A stretch of DNA of 54,481 bases from IMG/VR virus record IMGVR_UViG_3300046809_000312, positions 1 through 54,481 of that record. One strand, given 5' to 3'. This stretch comes from a virus. Each line of letters begins with the position of its first letter. Position 1 is the stretch's first letter. Positions 4,018 to 54,481 of this stretch are shown here, piece by piece. A program made the translations under genes and the position numbers. Under the pieces are notes generated by a model. The model made no database searches. It saw only the letters and a program-made list of their open reading frames with translations, and had not been told where the DNA came from.

Positions 4018-4515
4018 GTGTCTGTGCTGACGATCGTCAACCTAGCCATTCTGGCCGCTTCGATCGGCCTCCCTATCGCTTTGTATACGCGCCACGTACG
4101 AAACCAGCCATGGGGGCCATCCCGGCGGGTGGTAGAGGGCTACATGGACAACATCCACGAGTCCCCGACACCGGCATCCGCCGGCAGTCAGGTGTGGATG
4201 CTGACAAGTGAACGCCTTTTTTCCTACGGGCTGTACCTCGTTGTCCTCGGCTGTGTGCTGGTCGTATGCCTCGGCACGTACGACCTGACCCACAGTTGGG
4301 ATCAACACGGCCACCTGACGCCCCCGGACGCCCCCCAAGCGGTGACTGTCTTCCTGGCCATCCTGGCGGGCGTGACTGCAGCCCTGACAAGGCTTGCTGC
4401 CGCATACACAAAGATCATTCGCGCGCGCGGCGAAGTCGACAACGACCGCATCCGAGCGATGGCCGAAGTCGAACGGGCACGCGCAGCAAGAGAGCTGCCC
4501 AAGAAACGGCGATGA
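4018..4515 (+). CDS. Three-pass membrane protein with charged tail, low-GC cargo gene
   Basis: A 165-aa protein, GTG start at 4018 with GGTCACC upstream. Three hydrophobic segments occur at about 3-24, 64-88 and 107-130, followed by a cytoplasmic-looking charged helical tail (RARGEVDNDRIRAMAEVERARA). Base composition is visibly less GC-rich than its neighbours and codon choice is relaxed. It is separated by hairpins from the transfer operon. I do not recognise the family. A moron (lysogenic cargo such as superinfection exclusion) is a guess from composition, isolation and membrane location. Confidence 0.6.
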   Translation: MSVLTIVNLAILAASIGLPIALYTRHVRNQPWGPSRRVVEGYMDNIHESPTPASAGSQVWMLTSERLFSYGLYLVVLGCVLVVCLGTYDLTHSWDQHGHLTPPDAPQAVTVFLAILAGVTAALTRLAAAYTKIIRARGEVDNDRIRAMAEVERARAARELPKKRR

Positions 4516-4746
4516 TTCATGAATCGCATGCGGTTCCTCAACGATTCGCGCGCGAAAGATCGACGAATGATCACTACATCTATCGTCGATAAAAATACGT
4601 CCTAGCAGGTCAACACGATCTGTCCCTAGGGGACTCCCTAGGGACTCGCGTGCGCGCGTTCCCCTCCCCTCCCATATATGGGGGGGTGAAGGTAGAGAGA
4701 TCGTCTACAGGTAGTAGCGGGCGAGCGCACGAACCCATCTCACTCT
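4514..4746. other. Origin-like non-coding segment (copy A)
   Basis: This stretch contains palindrome GATTCATGAATC (4514-4525), palindrome TTCGCGCGCGAA (4545-4556), an 8-bp inverted repeat ATCGACGA/TCGTCGAT (4559-4566, 4583-4590) and an AT-rich patch CGATAAAAATACG. It then has a block from 4622 to about 4746 (GTCCCTAGGGGAC, CGCGCGTTCCCCTCCCCTCCC, GGTAGAGAG) that closely matches 47686-47812 inside the initiator gene. Iteron-like palindromes plus AT-rich DNA plus a duplicated initiator-gene sequence point to a replication origin or a copy of one. It could instead be the remnant of a second initiator gene. Confidence 0.5.
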
Positions 4747-5069: not shown

Positions 5070-5441
5070 GTGTTCGGCAGTAAGAAGAACGACCAGGAAA
5101 AAGCCGCAGCGCGCCGCCAACGGCAGATCACCCAAGCCGCGGCGTCCGCCGGCATCACGGTCATGGGGGGAAAGTTCCGCGCTCCGAATCAGGACCCGAT
5201 ACCGATCGACGGCGCCCGCATGACCATCGAGCGAGGCGAGGATGCCGGCAAGCGGGTCACCGCGACCCGAGTCCTACTGACCGGAGTGTTCGCGCTGCTG
5301 CTGAAGAAAGATCAGACGCAGTTGTTCATCACCGTCGAGAACGGCGAGCAAGTGATGATGATCCCGGTACCGGCAAAGAAGGAAGCTGCCGCGCGCGTCC
5401 TCGCGACCATGGTCAACAGCGAGGCAACCGGCGTCAGTTGA
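5070..5441 (+). CDS. Hypothetical protein with beta-rich C-terminal domain
   Basis: A 123-aa protein; GTG at 5070 preceded by GAGGGGGGACCC is the best start. The N-terminus is charged and helical (SKKNDQEKAAARRQRQ). The middle and C-terminus alternate hydrophobic residues as in a small beta-domain (RVLLTGVFALLLKKDQTQLF, then VMMIPVPAKKEAAARVL), somewhat like bacterial PH-type folds. The next gene starts 26 bases later. Function is not identifiable. Confidence 0.65.
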   Translation: MFGSKKNDQEKAAARRQRQITQAAASAGITVMGGKFRAPNQDPIPIDGARMTIERGEDAGKRVTATRVLLTGVFALLLKKDQTQLFITVENGEQVMMIPVPAKKEAAARVLATMVNSEATGVS

Positions 5442-5467
5442 TCCCGCCTCGGAAAGGACCCCGTCCC

Positions 5468-5713
5468 ATGCGCGTACACCTGTCGGACGGGGTCCGCGAG
5501 GTCGAGATCACAGCCAAGGGGTACAGCCGCAAGCAGCTCGACGACGTCGAGAACTCAGCGCTCCGCATCCTCGACGCCCTGCGCAGCGACCAACCGACCG
5601 AGCGAGGCAAGACGTTCGGGTTCGTGCCCGACGTCACCCTCGACAGCAGCGCCGAGCGCGCCGAGCCGTACGTCGACGGCCGCGACCAGGACGACGAGGA
5701 CGACGACGCATGA
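5468..5713 (+). CDS. Small acidic-tailed phage protein
   Basis: An 81-aa product with ATG at 5468 after GGAAAGGACCCC. It has a short beta-rich start (MRVHLSDGVREVEITAKGYS), a helix, and a strongly acidic C-terminus (DGRDQDDEDDDA). The stop overlaps the HNH gene start (ATGA), so the two are coupled. Comparable small acidic proteins precede HNH and terminase genes in actinophages; function unknown. Confidence 0.65.
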   Translation: MRVHLSDGVREVEITAKGYSRKQLDDVENSALRILDALRSDQPTERGKTFGFVPDVTLDSSAERAEPYVDGRDQDDEDDDA

Positions 5714-6905: not shown

Positions 6906-7511
6906 ATGACGACGAGGCGCCCCTGCGAGCACTGCGACGAGCCGATGCCGATCACGGCTCGGCGGCACGCGCGGTTCTGTCGGCCGGCGTGCCGAGCTGC
7001 TGCTCATCGAGCGGCACGAGAGATCCCGGCCGAGCTAACGAGCCGGCCGCGATGGGTCCGGCGCACCTCGCGGAAGGTTCCGGTCGCGGTCGACGGCTCG
7101 GTCGCGAGCAGCACCGACCCGGCGTCCTGGTCGCGTTACCGCGACGCCGCCCGCTCGGCTGCGGGCGTCGGGCTCGGGTTCGTCCTCGACGGCGACGGCG
7201 TCGTCTGCCTCGACCTCGATCACTGCCTCAACGACGAGGGCACGGTCGCGGGTTGGGCGCGCAACGTCCTCGACACGGTCGACGGCTCGACGTGGGTCGA
7301 GGTGTCGCAGGGCGGCGACGGGCTGCACGTGTGGGGGCACGGCCGACTGCCGGGCAACGCGGGGCGCCGGCTACGGCTCGGCGAGGGCACGGTCGAGGTG
7401 TACGCGACCGGGCGGTACATCGCAGTCACGGGGCGGACGTTCGGCGGCACCCCGCAGCGCCTCGCCAATCTGCAGCACGTGATCGAGTGGCTGCAATCTG
7501 CCCGCGAGTAG
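6906..7511 (+). CDS. Small primase-polymerase-like protein (AEP superfamily, NrS-1 type)
   Basis: A 201-aa protein. An N-terminal zinc-finger-like segment (C7, C10, C25, C30) is followed by an archaeo-eukaryotic primase-like core. The metal-binding DxD lies in VVCLDLDHCL (D103, D105). The second motif is SQGGDGLHVWG with H141, and the third block is VEVYATGRYIAVTG (163-176). The pattern matches bifunctional primase-polymerase N-terminal domains of the NrS-1 kind. No helicase domain is fused, so it is far shorter than full prim-pol-helicases. It may prime phage replication or act in end processing; its location beside HNH and terminase rather than in the replication block is notable. Confidence 0.8.
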   Translation: MTTRRPCEHCDEPMPITARRHARFCRPACRAAAHRAAREIPAELTSRPRWVRRTSRKVPVAVDGSVASSTDPASWSRYRDAARSAAGVGLGFVLDGDGVVCLDLDHCLNDEGTVAGWARNVLDTVDGSTWVEVSQGGDGLHVWGHGRLPGNAGRRLRLGEGTVEVYATGRYIAVTGRTFGGTPQRLANLQHVIEWLQSARE

Positions 7512-15466: not shown

Positions 15467-15801
15467 GTCGACGACTGATCGCGTACGTGCACGTTGACGG
15501 CGTCCCGTACGGGCCCGACGACGAGGTGCCGCCGAGGGTGGCGAAGCGGATCGGCGACCACGCGTGGACCGATGCCGATTCCGCGGCCGAAGTGCCCACG
15601 CCCACGCCCACGCCCACGGGCGCGGGCGACGGTTCGGGAGACGAGGCGCCGCCTCGTTCGGGCCGCGGCTCGGGCGTCGAGGCATGGCGGGCGTACGCCG
15701 AGCAGCACGACGTCGAGGTCGCCGCCGAGGCGAGCCGCGAGGAGATCATCGCGGCGTGCGAGGCGGCCGAACTCGTCGAGCCCGAGCAGCTGAAGGAGTA
15801 G
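15463..15801 (+). CDS. Head-neck region protein with HeH/LEM-like tail
   Basis: A 112-aa product, ATG at 15463 overlapping the capsid stop (ATGA). The N-terminus contains YVHVDGVPYGPDDEVP. The middle has a PTPTPTPTGAG linker created by one copy of a palindromic DNA repeat (15594-15627). The C-terminal 35 residues form two short helices (VEAWRAYAEQHDVEVAAEA, EEIIAACEAAELVE) like the HeH/LEM or Rho-N-type modules often found beside capsid genes. Function unknown. Confidence 0.7.
   Translation: MSRRLIAYVHVDGVPYGPDDEVPPRVAKRIGDHAWTDADSAAEVPTPTPTPTGAGDGSGDEAPPRSGRGSGVEAWRAYAEQHDVEVAAEASREEIIAACEAAELVEPEQLKE
15594..15627. repeat. Dispersed palindromic repeat, copy 1
   Basis: Four tandem CCCACG units run into GGGCGCGGGC, matching the core GCCCACGCCCAYGGGCGYGGGC found at four other sites. 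It lies within the coding sequence and produces a Pro/Thr linker. Confidence 0.7.
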
Positions 15802-37553: not shown

Positions 37554-37934
37554 ATGACCCCTGCCCGGCTCCATCTGACCAGCAATCACATGCTGCGAGG
37601 ACTGATGACCTGGGCGCCGGGCGGCGGCTCGCTGGATATCCGGAAGCTCGCCGACGCCGTCGGCGTCTCGAAGAGCAAGATCGGCGCACTGCTGTCGGGG
37701 GAACGCCCTTCGGTCACAAAGGACATTGCCGACCGCATATGCGAAGTGCTCGACGTACGTCGGGACGCTCTTTTTTATGACCCACTGCCCACGCCCATGG
37801 GCGTGGGCAGTCATCCCAAGGAAGGGGCAGAACGACGTGAACACGAGCGAGCGGTCGCAACAGATGAGGTTCGCGGCTCACATGAGTTGGGCGAACACCT
37901 CGAACAGGTCGGCTCGTACCGCCGCCGCTCGTAG
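37554..37934 (+). CDS. Cro-like XRE regulator, first gene of the early operon
   Basis: A 126-aa protein, ATG 37554 after CGGAGGCTCATCC. The N-terminal 75 residues contain an XRE-type helix-turn-helix: LDIRKLADAVGVSKSKIGALLSGERPSVT, with the recognition helix near SKSKIGALL, followed by DIADRICEVLDVRRDALF. The tail begins with PLPTPMGVG, encoded by a perfect 28-bp palindrome (37784-37811), and is polar. The gene faces the early region and shares operators with the divergent repressor. It is either the Cro equivalent or the repressor itself. Confidence 0.75.
   Translation: MTPARLHLTSNHMLRGLMTWAPGGGSLDIRKLADAVGVSKSKIGALLSGERPSVTKDIADRICEVLDVRRDALFYDPLPTPMGVGSHPKEGAERREHERAVATDEVRGSHELGEHLEQVGSYRRRS
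37784..37811. repeat. Dispersed palindromic repeat, copy 2 (perfect 28-bp palindrome)
   Basis: ACTGCCCACGCCCATGGGCGTGGGCAGT is self-complementary over all 28 bases (halves ACTGCCCACGCCCA and its complement). It follows a TTTTTT run inside the 3' part of the regulator gene and shares its core with copies at 15594, 47114, 49495 and 54159. Confidence 0.8.
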
Positions 37935-46829: not shown

Positions 46830-47194
46830 CATACCCACCGAGCAGCAGAGGCGGCGCTCGTCGTGAGCGATGCCGCTGCGGCCGCACCGTGATGCGGCAG
46901 CTCGTCGGCAACCGGGCGGCACTCAATGTGACCGCCGACGTCGATGAGTTGACCCCTGCGGCGGCCGCGATGCTGCGCGAGCCGAACCGGCTCGACTGGT
47001 GTGTGCGCACCACTGCGGGCGGGCCCGATCTGCAGTGGGCCGACTGCCACCGACGCAAGGCGGAGTGCACCCGCCCGCACGTGATCGACCACCAGTGCAC
47101 GGGCGTCCCTGTTGCCCACGCCCACGGGCGAGGGCGACAGGGACGCCGCCCCCGAAAGTCCTCGGTCGCCGAGGGACAACTCGCCCTCGGATAG
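46826..47194 (+). CDS. Cys-rich small protein upstream of the initiator
   Basis: A 122-aa product, GTG 46826. Cys/His pairs CRCGRT, DWCVRTTAGG, DCHRRKAECTRPHVIDHQC form a probable zinc site. A palindromic DNA repeat (47114-47135) is read here as VAHAHGRGRQG, a different frame from its other copies. It ends ten bases before the initiator gene. Confidence 0.62.
   Translation: MTYPPSSRGGARRERCRCGRTVMRQLVGNRAALNVTADVDELTPAAAAMLREPNRLDWCVRTTAGGPDLQWADCHRRKAECTRPHVIDHQCTGVPVAHAHGRGRQGRRPRKSSVAEGQLALG
47102..47147. repeat. Dispersed palindromic repeat, copy 3 (extended 46-bp inverted repeat)
   Basis: Core 47114-47135 is flanked by GGCGTCCCTGT and its complement ACAGGGACGCC, making a near-perfect 46-base inverted repeat just before the replication initiator gene. 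Confidence 0.7.
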
Positions 47195-47204
47195 GAGAAC
47201 CCCG

Positions 47205-48128
47205 ATGCCATGGTTCGTCGTTGACGACAACGCCGACAGCCACCCGAAGTTCGTCGCCGCCGGGAACGCGGCGATCGGGCTGTGGGCGCGGACGGGCGCG
47301 TATGCGGCCCGGCACCTGACCGACGGCATCGTGCCCGGAGACATCGCCAAGATGTACGGCTCGAAGCCACAGATCACGAAGCTCGTCGCGTCCGGGCTGT
47401 GGCACATGGCGGGGCACGACTGCGCTCACCCCAAGTGCCTGCAGCCGGCTCGCGGCGACTTCACGATTCACGACTACTTGATCTACAACCCGTCGCGCCG
47501 CGACGTCCTCGTGAAGCGCGAGCGGGCCGCCGAGAAGAAGCGGCGACAGCGCTCGGGGCAGGATCCGCAGACGAATCGCGACGGATCCGGCAGCGATCCG
47601 TACGAGAATCGCGAAGGATTCGACGACGATTCGTCAACGAATGACGCGCCGAAAAATGACGGGCCCGCAGGTCAGGGCGCTGCGTCCCCAGGGGACGACT
47701 CGGGGACTCACGCGCGCGCGTTCCCCTCCCCTCCCCTCCCCTCCCACAAGGGGGGCGCAGGTAGAGAGTCGGCTGCAGGAGGTAGCGGGCGCGGTCGCGC
47801 ACCTCTCTCTCTGATCGCCGCCGATTGGCAGCCGAGCGACGACGACGTGCAGGCGGCGCAACTCGCCCGCGCCGACGGCGGCCGCGAGCAGCTCACCGCG
47901 CAGCAACTCGACGCCGTCACCCGCAAGTTCAGGCAGCGGATGCTCGACGACCAGGTGCAGGCGGCCGCATGGGGCGGGCGCTGGCAGCAGTGGGCCGAGA
48001 ACGAGCGCACCGAGCAGCAGCCGGCCCCTGGCGGGAACGTCGTGCAGTTCGGCGCCATGACCAAGAGCCAGCAGCAGCGCGCCGGCCTCGGCCGGCTGCG
48101 CGGTCGCCTGAGCGGAGACACCGCATGA
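47205..48128 (+). CDS. Replication initiator-like protein (winged helix, O-type)
   Basis: A 307-aa protein, ATG 47205 after AGGAGAACCCCG. Residues 1-100 match the N-terminal winged-helix segment of a family widespread in actinophages: PWFVVDDNADSHPKFVAAGN, then IGLWARTGAYAARHLTDG, with CAHPKC and FTIHDYLIYNPS. Residues about 120-205 are low-complexity and coincide with the iteron-like DNA at 47573-47815. The C-terminal helical domain (about 210-307) may contact the helicase loader. Domain order and an origin inside the gene recall lambda O and SPP1 gp38. The next gene looks like its loader partner. Confidence 0.72.
   Translation: MPWFVVDDNADSHPKFVAAGNAAIGLWARTGAYAARHLTDGIVPGDIAKMYGSKPQITKLVASGLWHMAGHDCAHPKCLQPARGDFTIHDYLIYNPSRRDVLVKRERAAEKKRRQRSGQDPQTNRDGSGSDPYENREGFDDDSSTNDAPKNDGPAGQGAASPGDDSGTHARAFPSPPLPSHKGGAGRESAAGGSGRGRAPLSLIAADWQPSDDDVQAAQLARADGGREQLTAQQLDAVTRKFRQRMLDDQVQAAAWGGRWQQWAENERTEQQPAPGGNVVQFGAMTKSQQQRAGLGRLRGRLSGDTA
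47573..47815. other. Origin-like segment inside the initiator gene (copy B)
   Basis: Contains repeats GAATCGCGACGGATCC (47573) and GAATCGCGAAGGATTC (47606), inverted repeat ATTCGT/ACGAAT (47629-47642), a locally AT-richer patch (CCGAAAAATGACG), GTCCCCAGGGGAC (47685) and a CGCGCGTTCCCCTCCCCTCCC tract that recurs in the non-coding region at 4622-4746. The encoded stretch is a low-complexity linker, as expected where DNA function constrains the sequence. Confidence 0.55.
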
Positions 48129-49121: not shown

Positions 49122-49708
49122 CCGACACCAAAATGACCGCCGTCGAGGCGCTGCTCGCATTCGCCCGCCGTGTCGTCGACGACGAGGCCGCTCGGGCACT
49201 GCTCGACGAGGCAACTCTCGAACTCACCGGGCGTCGGATCGTGCGCCCCGATCAGCAGCTCGTACCGTTGCGGTTCACCGTGCGGCGCCATCACGACGTG
49301 AGCGGAGTGAGCGGCGACGGGTCGGTCGCCGACGGCGTGCTGTGGCCCGACGGAACCGCCTCGGTGCGGTGGCGCGGCGAACATCCCTCGGCCGTGTTCT
49401 GGGATCGCGGCCGCGTGTCTGTGGAGTTCGTCCATGGGCACCAGGGCGCTACCGAGATCGTGCTCGTCGACCAGGACGAACAGCAGCTCGCCGCGCCCAC
49501 GCCCACGGGCGCGGGCGATCGGGTGGTCGCCGCCCCGATGGTCGTCCGCCGGGTTCTCGAACACGCGCTGCGCCGCCCCGTTCCGTGCCCGAAGTGCGAG
49601 CGCACCGCGCAGTGCAGGTGCATCGCGGACCGCACCGACGCGCGGATCGACACCGTGCTCGGCGCCCTCGCGCCGTGGCTCAACACCAGTACAGGCGAGG
49701 CGGCATGA
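49118..49708 (+). CDS. Early protein with C-terminal zinc motif
   Basis: A 196-aa product, ATG 49118. Helical N-terminus (VEALLAFARRVVDDEAARAL), a beta-rich middle (FTVRRHHDVSGVSGDGSVAD; AVFWDRGRVSVEFVHGHQGA), a PTPTGAGD linker from a palindromic repeat copy, and CPKCERTAQCRC near the end. The middle might be a small SH3-like barrel. Function unknown. Confidence 0.62.
   Translation: MTDTKMTAVEALLAFARRVVDDEAARALLDEATLELTGRRIVRPDQQLVPLRFTVRRHHDVSGVSGDGSVADGVLWPDGTASVRWRGEHPSAVFWDRGRVSVEFVHGHQGATEIVLVDQDEQQLAAPTPTGAGDRVVAAPMVVRRVLEHALRRPVPCPKCERTAQCRCIADRTDARIDTVLGALAPWLNTSTGEAA
49495..49516. repeat. Dispersed palindromic repeat, copy 4
   Basis: GCCCACGCCCACGGGCGCGGGC read as the linker APTPTGAGD; same core as the copies at 15594, 37784, 47114 and 54159. 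Confidence 0.75.
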
Positions 49709-50673: not shown

Positions 50674-51585
50674 ATGCAGCACACCGCCCGCACCCGAACC
50701 GTCCGCGACGATCTGCAGACCCTCGTCGATCACTGGGCCCACCTGCGCGCCCTGATCGACACCTCGCAGACCTCGGACACGTGGCCGCCCGCCATGGGTC
50801 ACGCCGAGTACCTGCGCGCCCTCGACGACCACGACGCCGCCGAGGTGTCAGCCGAGCAGCAGCTCGCCGCAGCGATCGCGCACGCCCTCGATCACCCGCA
50901 GCAACTCGTCACCATCCGGCACCCAAGCGGCCAGCTCTACTACCGGTGCGCGCACTGCACCCACGTTGGCGAGGGGCTGCCGCACCCGGTGCGCGAGGAC
51001 CGAGACCCGACGCAGCTCGGCGAGCGTCCGGTGCCGCTGCGCCTGCACGTCGCCGACGCGAGTCGTGCGATCGAGATCGCGATCTGTGGGCTCGCTGACT
51101 CGATCGCGGCCCGCGACGCCCTCGACCCCGCGGACTGGCACGGCCGGGACCGGGCGCAGCGCACCGTGCCGACCGCGGCCCGGTGGCTGCTTTCTCGGGT
51201 GACCGACAAACCGTGCTGCCCGACGCACGACGCCGAACAGGATCGGATCGCCCGGTTCGCGCGCGAAGCGGCCGACCGGCTCGACCGTGTCGTCGGGCTG
51301 CGGCGCGCGGCCGCGATCCTGCCGACGCCGTGCCCGTGGTGCGACGGCGATCTGATCGCGCACACCGAGGGCGACGCGATCACGCGCGTCACATGCGGTA
51401 CGGGCCTGGTCGACTGCGACGCCCCGGTGCCGTTCGACGTCGACCTGCGGGCGCGCGCGTGGTCGACGCCCGAGCAACTCGCCGCCCTGCAGCGTGAGAT
51501 CAGCGAGGCGGCGCGGCGCCGGAAGCGGGCCGAGGCGCGGGCGCGGCAGCGAGCAGCGGCTCGCGCTCGGCAGGCAGCCGCATAG
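50674..51585 (+). CDS. Zinc-finger hypothetical protein, plasmid/phage type
   Basis: A 303-aa product, ATG 50674 after AGGAGCGCTCACC. Features: YYRCAHCTHVGEG, then DKPCCPTHDAEQDR, and CPWCDGDLIAHTEGDAITRVTC as a CxxC...C zinc ribbon. The C-terminal helix is very basic (RRRKRAEARARQRAAARARQ). Such proteins are frequent in Streptomyces plasmids and phages; they probably bind nucleic acid. It lies between the early operon and the transfer module and could belong to either. Confidence 0.62.
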   Translation: MQHTARTRTVRDDLQTLVDHWAHLRALIDTSQTSDTWPPAMGHAEYLRALDDHDAAEVSAEQQLAAAIAHALDHPQQLVTIRHPSGQLYYRCAHCTHVGEGLPHPVREDRDPTQLGERPVPLRLHVADASRAIEIAICGLADSIAARDALDPADWHGRDRAQRTVPTAARWLLSRVTDKPCCPTHDAEQDRIARFAREAADRLDRVVGLRRAAAILPTPCPWCDGDLIAHTEGDAITRVTCGTGLVDCDAPVPFDVDLRARAWSTPEQLAALQREISEAARRRKRAEARARQRAAARARQAAA

Positions 51586-53619: not shown

Positions 53620-54481
53620 GTGTCCGACACCGCAGCACCGCCCGCAGTGACCGAGGCCGCGCCCACACCACCCGACCCGGCGGCCGCCGCGCCGCCGCCC
53701 GCACCCGTACCTGCCCCGCACCCCGCCGAGGCCGAGCCGAAGCAGCGCACCCCGCGCCGCCGCGGCGTACCGATCGAGCCGCTCGTCATCGGCGCCGGAA
53801 ACGGCACGGCGGTCATGGCGACCGCCGCCTATCAAGTGGCCGGACCGATGGGGATCGCCGCGGCCGCAGGAACCGCCGCCGCCCTGACAGTCGGCGGGAT
53901 CCTGCAGCGTCGCCGCACGGTTCGTACCCGCACAACGACCGGGGCGGGGCGCACGCGGGGCGGGGCGGCCGCCGCGAACCGAGGGCGGACTCGGGGCGGG
54001 GCGTCCGGCAGAGCGTCGGGGCGGGGCGGATCGGGGCGGGGCGGGTCCGGCCGCCGGGGCGGCGCCCTCGGGGCGGGCTCGGGGGCGGGTCGTACCCGGC
54101 GGGGCGCCCTCGGCCCGCTCGACGGCCGCGGGGCGGGGCGGCTCAAAACGCCCCAAACGCCCACGCCCACGGGCGCGGGCAGGCACCGCCGCCCCGGCAA
54201 GCACAAGAGCACGCCCTCGACCAGGACGCGCACGCCCCGCATCCGAAACCGGCTCGGCATGGTGCGCCCCGCCGCGAGCGCCGCCCGCCGCGGCATGGCC
54301 AACACAGGGCGCGCGCTGCGATCCACGGGGCGCGGCGTCGCGCGCACCGCACGCGGCATCGGTCACATGGGGCGCTTTGCTGCCGCCCCTGCTCGCGCAC
54401 TGTGGCGCAGGACCGAGGCGGCGCGACGAGCTGCTGCTCGCCGAGTCGTGCGCGCCCCGGGCGCGGTCTGGGGTATCGCCC
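53620..54481 (+). CDS. Arg-rich membrane protein of the transfer module, N-terminal part (continues at base 1)
   Basis: GTG 53620 follows GAAGGAGACAGACC. The frame runs to the end of the window and continues in frame at bases 1-760 on a circle of 54,323 bp (487 aa). The N-terminal 45 residues are Pro/Ala-rich. Residues about 60-105 form two hydrophobic segments (LVIGAGNGTAVMATAAY; MGIAAAAGTAAALTVGGIL). Then comes a long Gly/Arg region with RGG-like repeats (to about 200), followed by Arg-rich helices. The last part of the window (54450-54481) differs from its copy at the start. Position before the translocase gene implies a partner role. Confidence 0.75.
   Translation, partial: MSDTAAPPAVTEAAPTPPDPAAAAPPPAPVPAPHPAEAEPKQRTPRRRGVPIEPLVIGAGNGTAVMATAAYQVAGPMGIAAAAGTAAALTVGGILQRRRTVRTRTTTGAGRTRGGAAAANRGRTRGGASGRASGRGGSGRGGSGRRGGALGAGSGAGRTRRGALGPLDGRGAGRLKTPQTPTPTGAGRHRRPGKHKSTPSTRTRTPRIRNRLGMVRPAASAARRGMANTGRALRSTGRGVARTARGIGHMGRFAAAPARALWRRTEAARRAAARRVVRAPGAVWGIA
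54159..54180. repeat. Dispersed palindromic repeat, copy 5
   Basis: GCCCACGCCCACGGGCGCGGGC, identical in core to copy 4, read as PTPTGAG inside the Gly/Arg-rich region of the membrane protein. Confidence 0.75.
54324..54481. repeat. Terminal overlap, right copy
   Basis: Matches bases 1-158 with four differences, all in the last 32 bases (54450, 54457, 54473, 54476). Three of them change the protein (A to P, D to G, S to I). Treated as assembly overlap of a circular sequence. Confidence 0.85.

Follow-up and report, generated by a model that had tools for sequence, protein, structure and literature searches.

The window analyzed here, that is, the whole 54,481-nt record IMGVR_UViG_3300046809_000312 of a Streptomyces-type phage, contains two homologous stretches of approximately 180 bp, one located in non-coding DNA (copy A) and the other in frame within the initiator gene (copy B). 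Comparison with related sequences makes it likely that both are copies of a single candidate origin module, recognized by the initiator that the phage itself encodes and laid out in a manner similar to oriL and oriR of the phage SPP1. The ends of the window repeat each other, which supports a circle of 54,323 bp, and the distance between A and B across the join of this circle is 11.26 kb, in line with the roughly 11 kb proposed in an earlier note on this DNA.

Copy A (4577-4746, plus strand) lies between the ORFs at 4018-4515 and 5438-5713, and copy B (47631-47816, plus strand) lies within the ORF at 47205-48128, with the same orientation and the same order of motifs. A BLAST search within the record aligned 4591-4746 with 47652-47812 at 72% identity (E 6.9e-18) and returned no further match, while the local alignment of 501-bp windows scored 230, whereas pairs drawn at random from this genome (up to 150) reached 154 at most. 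The core match that the earlier note had placed at 4622-4746 and 47686-47812 is thus correct, and the weaker similarity that it had described to the left reaches approximately 4577 and 47631, respectively. Since the two copies share GCAGGTCA, a gap of constant length (9 nt), GTCCCYNGGGGAC, CGCGCGCG, and a pentamer array, the alignment is not limited to the C-rich CCCCTCCC tract; in the window, GCAGGTCA-N9-GTCCC occurs exactly twice, at 4605 and 47667, and GTCCCYNGGGGAC is found in copies A and B only, with 0.07 occurrences expected.

In the element, GATTCG/GAATCG and CGACGA repeats are followed by an AT patch, GCAGGTCA, 9 nt, GTCCCYNGGGGAC, a second half repeat, CGCGCGCG, the array of 5-bp repeats, GTAGAGAG, and finally CTCTCTC, with a CG-rich stretch between the inverted repeat and the pentamers. 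On the plus strand of copy A, the left part (4515-4604) holds the GATTCG/GAATCG and CGACGA repeats and the AT-rich patch, a candidate unwinding element, and is followed by GCAGGTCA (4605-4612), the fixed 9-nt gap, the GTCCCTAGGGGAC palindrome with its second half-repeat CTCCCTAGGGAC (4622-4645), which is a candidate initiator site, and two full CCCCT pentamers plus CCC (4661-4673), then ATATAT. The corresponding plus-strand parts of copy B are the GATCCG/GATTCG/GAATCG repeats (47562-47642), GCAGGTCA (47667-47674), the GTCCCCAGGGGAC palindrome (47684-47696), and four full CCCCT pentamers plus CCC (47723-47745), which form the strongest period-5 tract of the window.

The GATTCG and CGACGA repeats were found in both copies, as had been claimed, and the AT-rich DNA attributed to both loci is evident at A, where the patch at 4555-4594 has 65% AT (the top 0.01% of the 40-mers of the window), and weaker at B (52.5%, the top 0.4%). 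Neither an RNA element nor, as a general feature, a G-quadruplex formed by the C-rich tract was retained, the former since the sole Rfam match was sub-threshold and outside the element (in L002), and the latter since many copies have CCACT or CCAAT instead. Elsewhere in the window, the dispersed palindromic word CCCACGCCCAYGGGCG is found at 15607-15622, 37788-37807, 47115-47130, 49496-49511, and 54160-54175, with 0.01 expected by chance.

The gene that houses copy B (47205-48128, plus strand) encodes a protein of 307 aa, which matches the PHROG_2447 profile, "replication initiation protein", over most of its length (E 2.3e-59). In the AlphaFold2 model of this protein, residues 1-117 and approximately 204-268 are ordered, while residues 124-197, which correspond to the element, are disordered. 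Among seven close initiator genes, the four-fold sites of the copy B core differ in 14% of cases, compared with 29% and 23% in the domains on either side, whereas 29% of its amino acids differ, against 18% and 20%, and the same picture emerges from 17 more diverse initiator genes, in which four-fold differences amount to 24% in the core and 41% and 35% in the flanks. Given the fewer four-fold differences, the greater amino acid change, and the disordered model, selection acts on the DNA word and is tolerated by the protein, which means that copy B is constrained as DNA rather than as protein. An element that occupies the linker region of an initiator gene and is conserved as DNA is what is seen in origins of the lambda O type. 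In one sequencing project, two records (G034 and G036; loci L168 and L170) have nearly the same initiator gene, which in G034 is shortened to 235 residues, against 317 in G036; a frameshift immediately downstream of the pentamer array is the apparent cause.

By analogy with lambda O and the G38P protein of SPP1, the N-terminal domain of the initiator would bind the inverted repeat and the pentamers, the AT patch would melt, and the C-terminal domain would bring in the replicative helicase. The N-terminal domain is probably a winged helix; given that the sequence and fold searches of the PDB returned no significant match for the initiator, this fold and the recruitment of the helicase are inferences.

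Further copies were sought with a profile of three copies, run on IMG/VR relatives and on records retrieved by the pattern GCAGGTCA-N9-GTCCCNNGGGGAC, which matched 32 stretches in viral contigs and a further 13 in bacterial genomes, almost all of them from Streptomyces and related actinomycetes. Two of the matches, in S. netropsis (L123) and in a member of the Gemmatimonadota (L125), were taken as chance, as the rest of the element is absent. In the clade of the window, 23 records have a readable place when duplicates are counted once, and copy A is present in all of them at the same position, upstream of the PHROG_23672 gene (in the window 5438-5713, plus strand, a syntenic marker and the downstream neighbor of A in most relatives), the prim-pol gene, and terL. 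Copy B is found in frame in 11 of the 23 (the window, G005, G008, G009, G017, G025, G028, G030, G031, G033, and G036) and is absent from the other 12 (SF3, G011, G014, G018, G020, G021, G023, G035, G040, G042, G045, and NZ_CP108596). In the Streptomyces phage SF3, for example, copy A occupies the same non-coding place, upstream of the homologue of the window ORF at 5438-5713, and the initiator gene, gp560, is entirely without the linker that carries copy B; in the rep genes without B, it is exactly this linker that is missing. By contrast, four whole records have B only (G019, G027, G029, and G032), and these are other phages with the same initiator and no matching packaging block. One record (G024) that might have been taken for a satellite with the origin alone is a phage fragment close to G018.

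The prim-pol domain gene (6906-7511 in the window) is a stand-alone gene of 201 aa with no helicase domain, and it is conserved beside the terminase block across the clade. Several metagenome contigs of the clade (L069, L013, L016, and L022) end between the DUF2637 and prim-pol genes, where the ends could be either variable DNA or real ends of the molecule.

The A and B copies fall into mostly separate groups in the tree of the elements, which indicates that the duplication predates the clade and, on this sequence comparison, is old; a recent duplication in the phage of the window is thereby ruled out. The rep tree, built without the linker, requires five changes in the state of B, three of them forced by well-supported branches, although this is a quick tree with many weak forks, which alone cannot separate the gain of B from its loss. 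Given that the outgroup phages have B only, the simplest history is that an origin within the gene was first joined by an intergenic copy and afterwards disappeared from the gene. For the PHROG_2447-type initiator family, the position of copy B would then probably be the ancestral one, with the extra copy A arising at the base of the phage clade, where it is now universal and probably serves as a main origin, and with copy B becoming dispensable and being lost several times. This comparative evidence bears out the suggestion of two related origin-like sites, one of them in the initiator gene, both being DNA-level elements tied to the initiator.

The plasmid state is represented among the relatives by NZ_CP108596.1, a complete circular Streptomyces plasmid of 51,758 bp with terminase, capsid, and tape-measure genes, which also encodes a Rep of the initiator family of the window, a TraB-like gene, and a DUF2637 gene. 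It has a single element, a non-coding copy A at approximately 50809-50966, and copy A alone thus accompanies the plasmid state in nature. It seems, from this genome, that A is enough for that state, which counts against a need for B there. The division of phage and plasmid-like replication between the two sites, raised in the earlier note, is hypothetical.

In all nine of the genomes analyzed, the detrended cumulative GC skew reaches its minimum 0.8-1.8 kb downstream of A, which would be expected in the vicinity of an origin, but the nine are related, and the change in third-codon-position skew across A in the window is not significant (0.05, 95% interval -0.015 to 0.11), so that the skew lends weak support.

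The element may, on the other hand, be an initiator-binding regulatory site, involved in autoregulation, copy-number control, incompatibility, or a fork barrier, with the true origin located elsewhere. Palindromes and repeats would suit any dimeric regulator, and copy A does lie upstream of a block of genes, although B is not in a promoter position, and the loss of B from 12 of the 23 relatives is also compatible with such a role. This explanation is nevertheless unlikely, given that some copy is present in every record with a readable site, that the single-copy records, including the natural plasmid, have retained precisely one full module together with its AT patch, and that in-gene arrays in unrelated phages are in keeping with what is known of lambda-type initiators (PMC6022878).

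Far less probable is a packaging function of copy A, as a cos or pac site, which might be suggested by its position upstream of the terminase genes and by the contigs that end between the DUF2637 and prim-pol genes. The SF3 record starts just before the first late genes, approximately 12 kb from its copy A (although the start of a record may differ from the physical end), and a second copy within the initiator gene would be unexpected for a packaging site, both of which argue against this function.

The window also has an FtsK/TraB-like gene (190-2889), approximately 1.7 kb upstream of copy A, and the earlier note had linked A to the transfer operon, which raises the possibility of a cis-acting, clt-like transfer locus read by the TraB-like protein of the adjoining transfer genes. 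This link did not hold, since no match to the TraB/FtsK-like family was found in 17 of the 19 relatives searched, all of which have copy A, whereas a Streptomyces clt locus would be expected to occur together with a TraB-type translocase; as the homologous copy also sits inside a replication gene, this function is largely refuted and highly improbable. As for the similarity being due to chance or low complexity, or to a recent duplication without function in this one phage, the C-rich tract is indeed present in both copies, but this is refuted by an E value of 7e-18, the unique long motifs, and lineages of A and of B that are orthologous in over 20 genomes.

The reading of A and B as origin modules served by one initiator is also supported by the pentamers, which are CCCCT in one Rep clade (the window, SF3, and their kin) and CCACT or CCAAT in the other. 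In the genomes with both copies, the pentamer letters of A and B agree, except in G034 and G036, which are mixed in both copies, and the identity between A and B within a genome is 0.705, against 0.678 for shuffled pairs (p 0.0008, uncorrected for kinship). The match between the type of pentamer and the Rep clade may be a single evolutionary event.

Beyond this clade, an array of period 5 (16 or more matches out of 20) follows the N-terminal domain in 63 of 88 distinct initiator genes from diverse viral contigs, while none was found in 1760 codon shuffles, 86 upstream stretches, or 85 downstream stretches. In the unrelated actinophages Raleigh, Phinally, GMA1, Florinda, Pickles13, and their relatives, the initiator genes, annotated as replication initiation, hypothetical, or "mucin-2" proteins, share the N-terminal domain and have a linker array preceded by inverted repeats, although both the pentamer letters (CCCGA or TCCCG) and the palindrome differ from those of the window. 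Tandem pentamer arrays were also seen in the initiator genes of Gordonia, Mycobacterium, Microbacterium, and other actinophages (L201-L423), some of which are annotated simply as hypothetical protein or "mucin-2". In a text search of a literature that includes few subscription journals, the array CCCGACCCGACCC turned up in no phage paper. There is an even chance that the linker arrays of PHROG_2447-type genes (CCCGA, TCCCG, CCCCT, CCACT, and others) represent a widespread, undescribed class of in-gene origins of actinobacterial phages, and that in the clade of the window the origin moved out, with the intergenic copy fixed, the in-gene copy lost several times, and the two, where both are kept, matched to the same initiator.

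Among the known systems, the Bacillus phage SPP1 carries oriL within gene 38, while oriR is intergenic and belongs to the late region; on the circle, the two are separated by 12-13 kb, with similar repeats and an AT-rich unwinding element at both, and its second origin is thought to stall the fork and trigger the formation of concatemers (PMC6316719, PMC3485210). The phage of the window likewise has two similar repeat modules, one in the initiator gene and the other intergenic, at 11.26 kb, but the repeats differ, the AT patch of unwinding strength is found mainly at A, and it is the intergenic copy that is universal and the in-gene copy that is often lost, so that the likeness is one of layout, and no membership is claimed. 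Where both copies are kept, A and B may act like oriR and oriL of SPP1, the second serving as a further origin or as a site of fork stalling that aids the switch to concatemers. A RuvC-like resolvase and an exonuclease are among the gene products of the window and would be compatible with a switch of this kind, although this is only suggestive.

In lambda, the origin within O lies between the DNA-binding and the partner-binding domains. The precedent of this phage, whose origin sequence is located within the initiator gene O (PMC6022878), had been invoked in the earlier note, and it stands for copy B as an in-gene linker element conserved as DNA, although oriL and oriR of SPP1 are closer than lambda O alone, given that the phage of the window has a second, intergenic copy, pentamer arrays in place of the lambda iterons, and an initiator of a different protein family. 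The mycobacteriophages Miko, Rachaly, and Jeeves are similar by description, as actinophage prophages that replicate as plasmids with a phage initiator; their origins are of the RepA type, and the authors suspected an origin within or next to repA and found no repeats (PMC7157519).

The paired-origin layout is therefore known from SPP1, and a description of it for the phage group of the window was not found. The element offers a candidate origin, with natural variants that have both copies, A only, or B only, and this for a large actinophage group in which few replication start sites have been mapped. If the origin reading is true, it could provide small cassettes of origin and initiator for Streptomyces plasmids, and it would represent a case in which an origin left the gene of its initiator during evolution.
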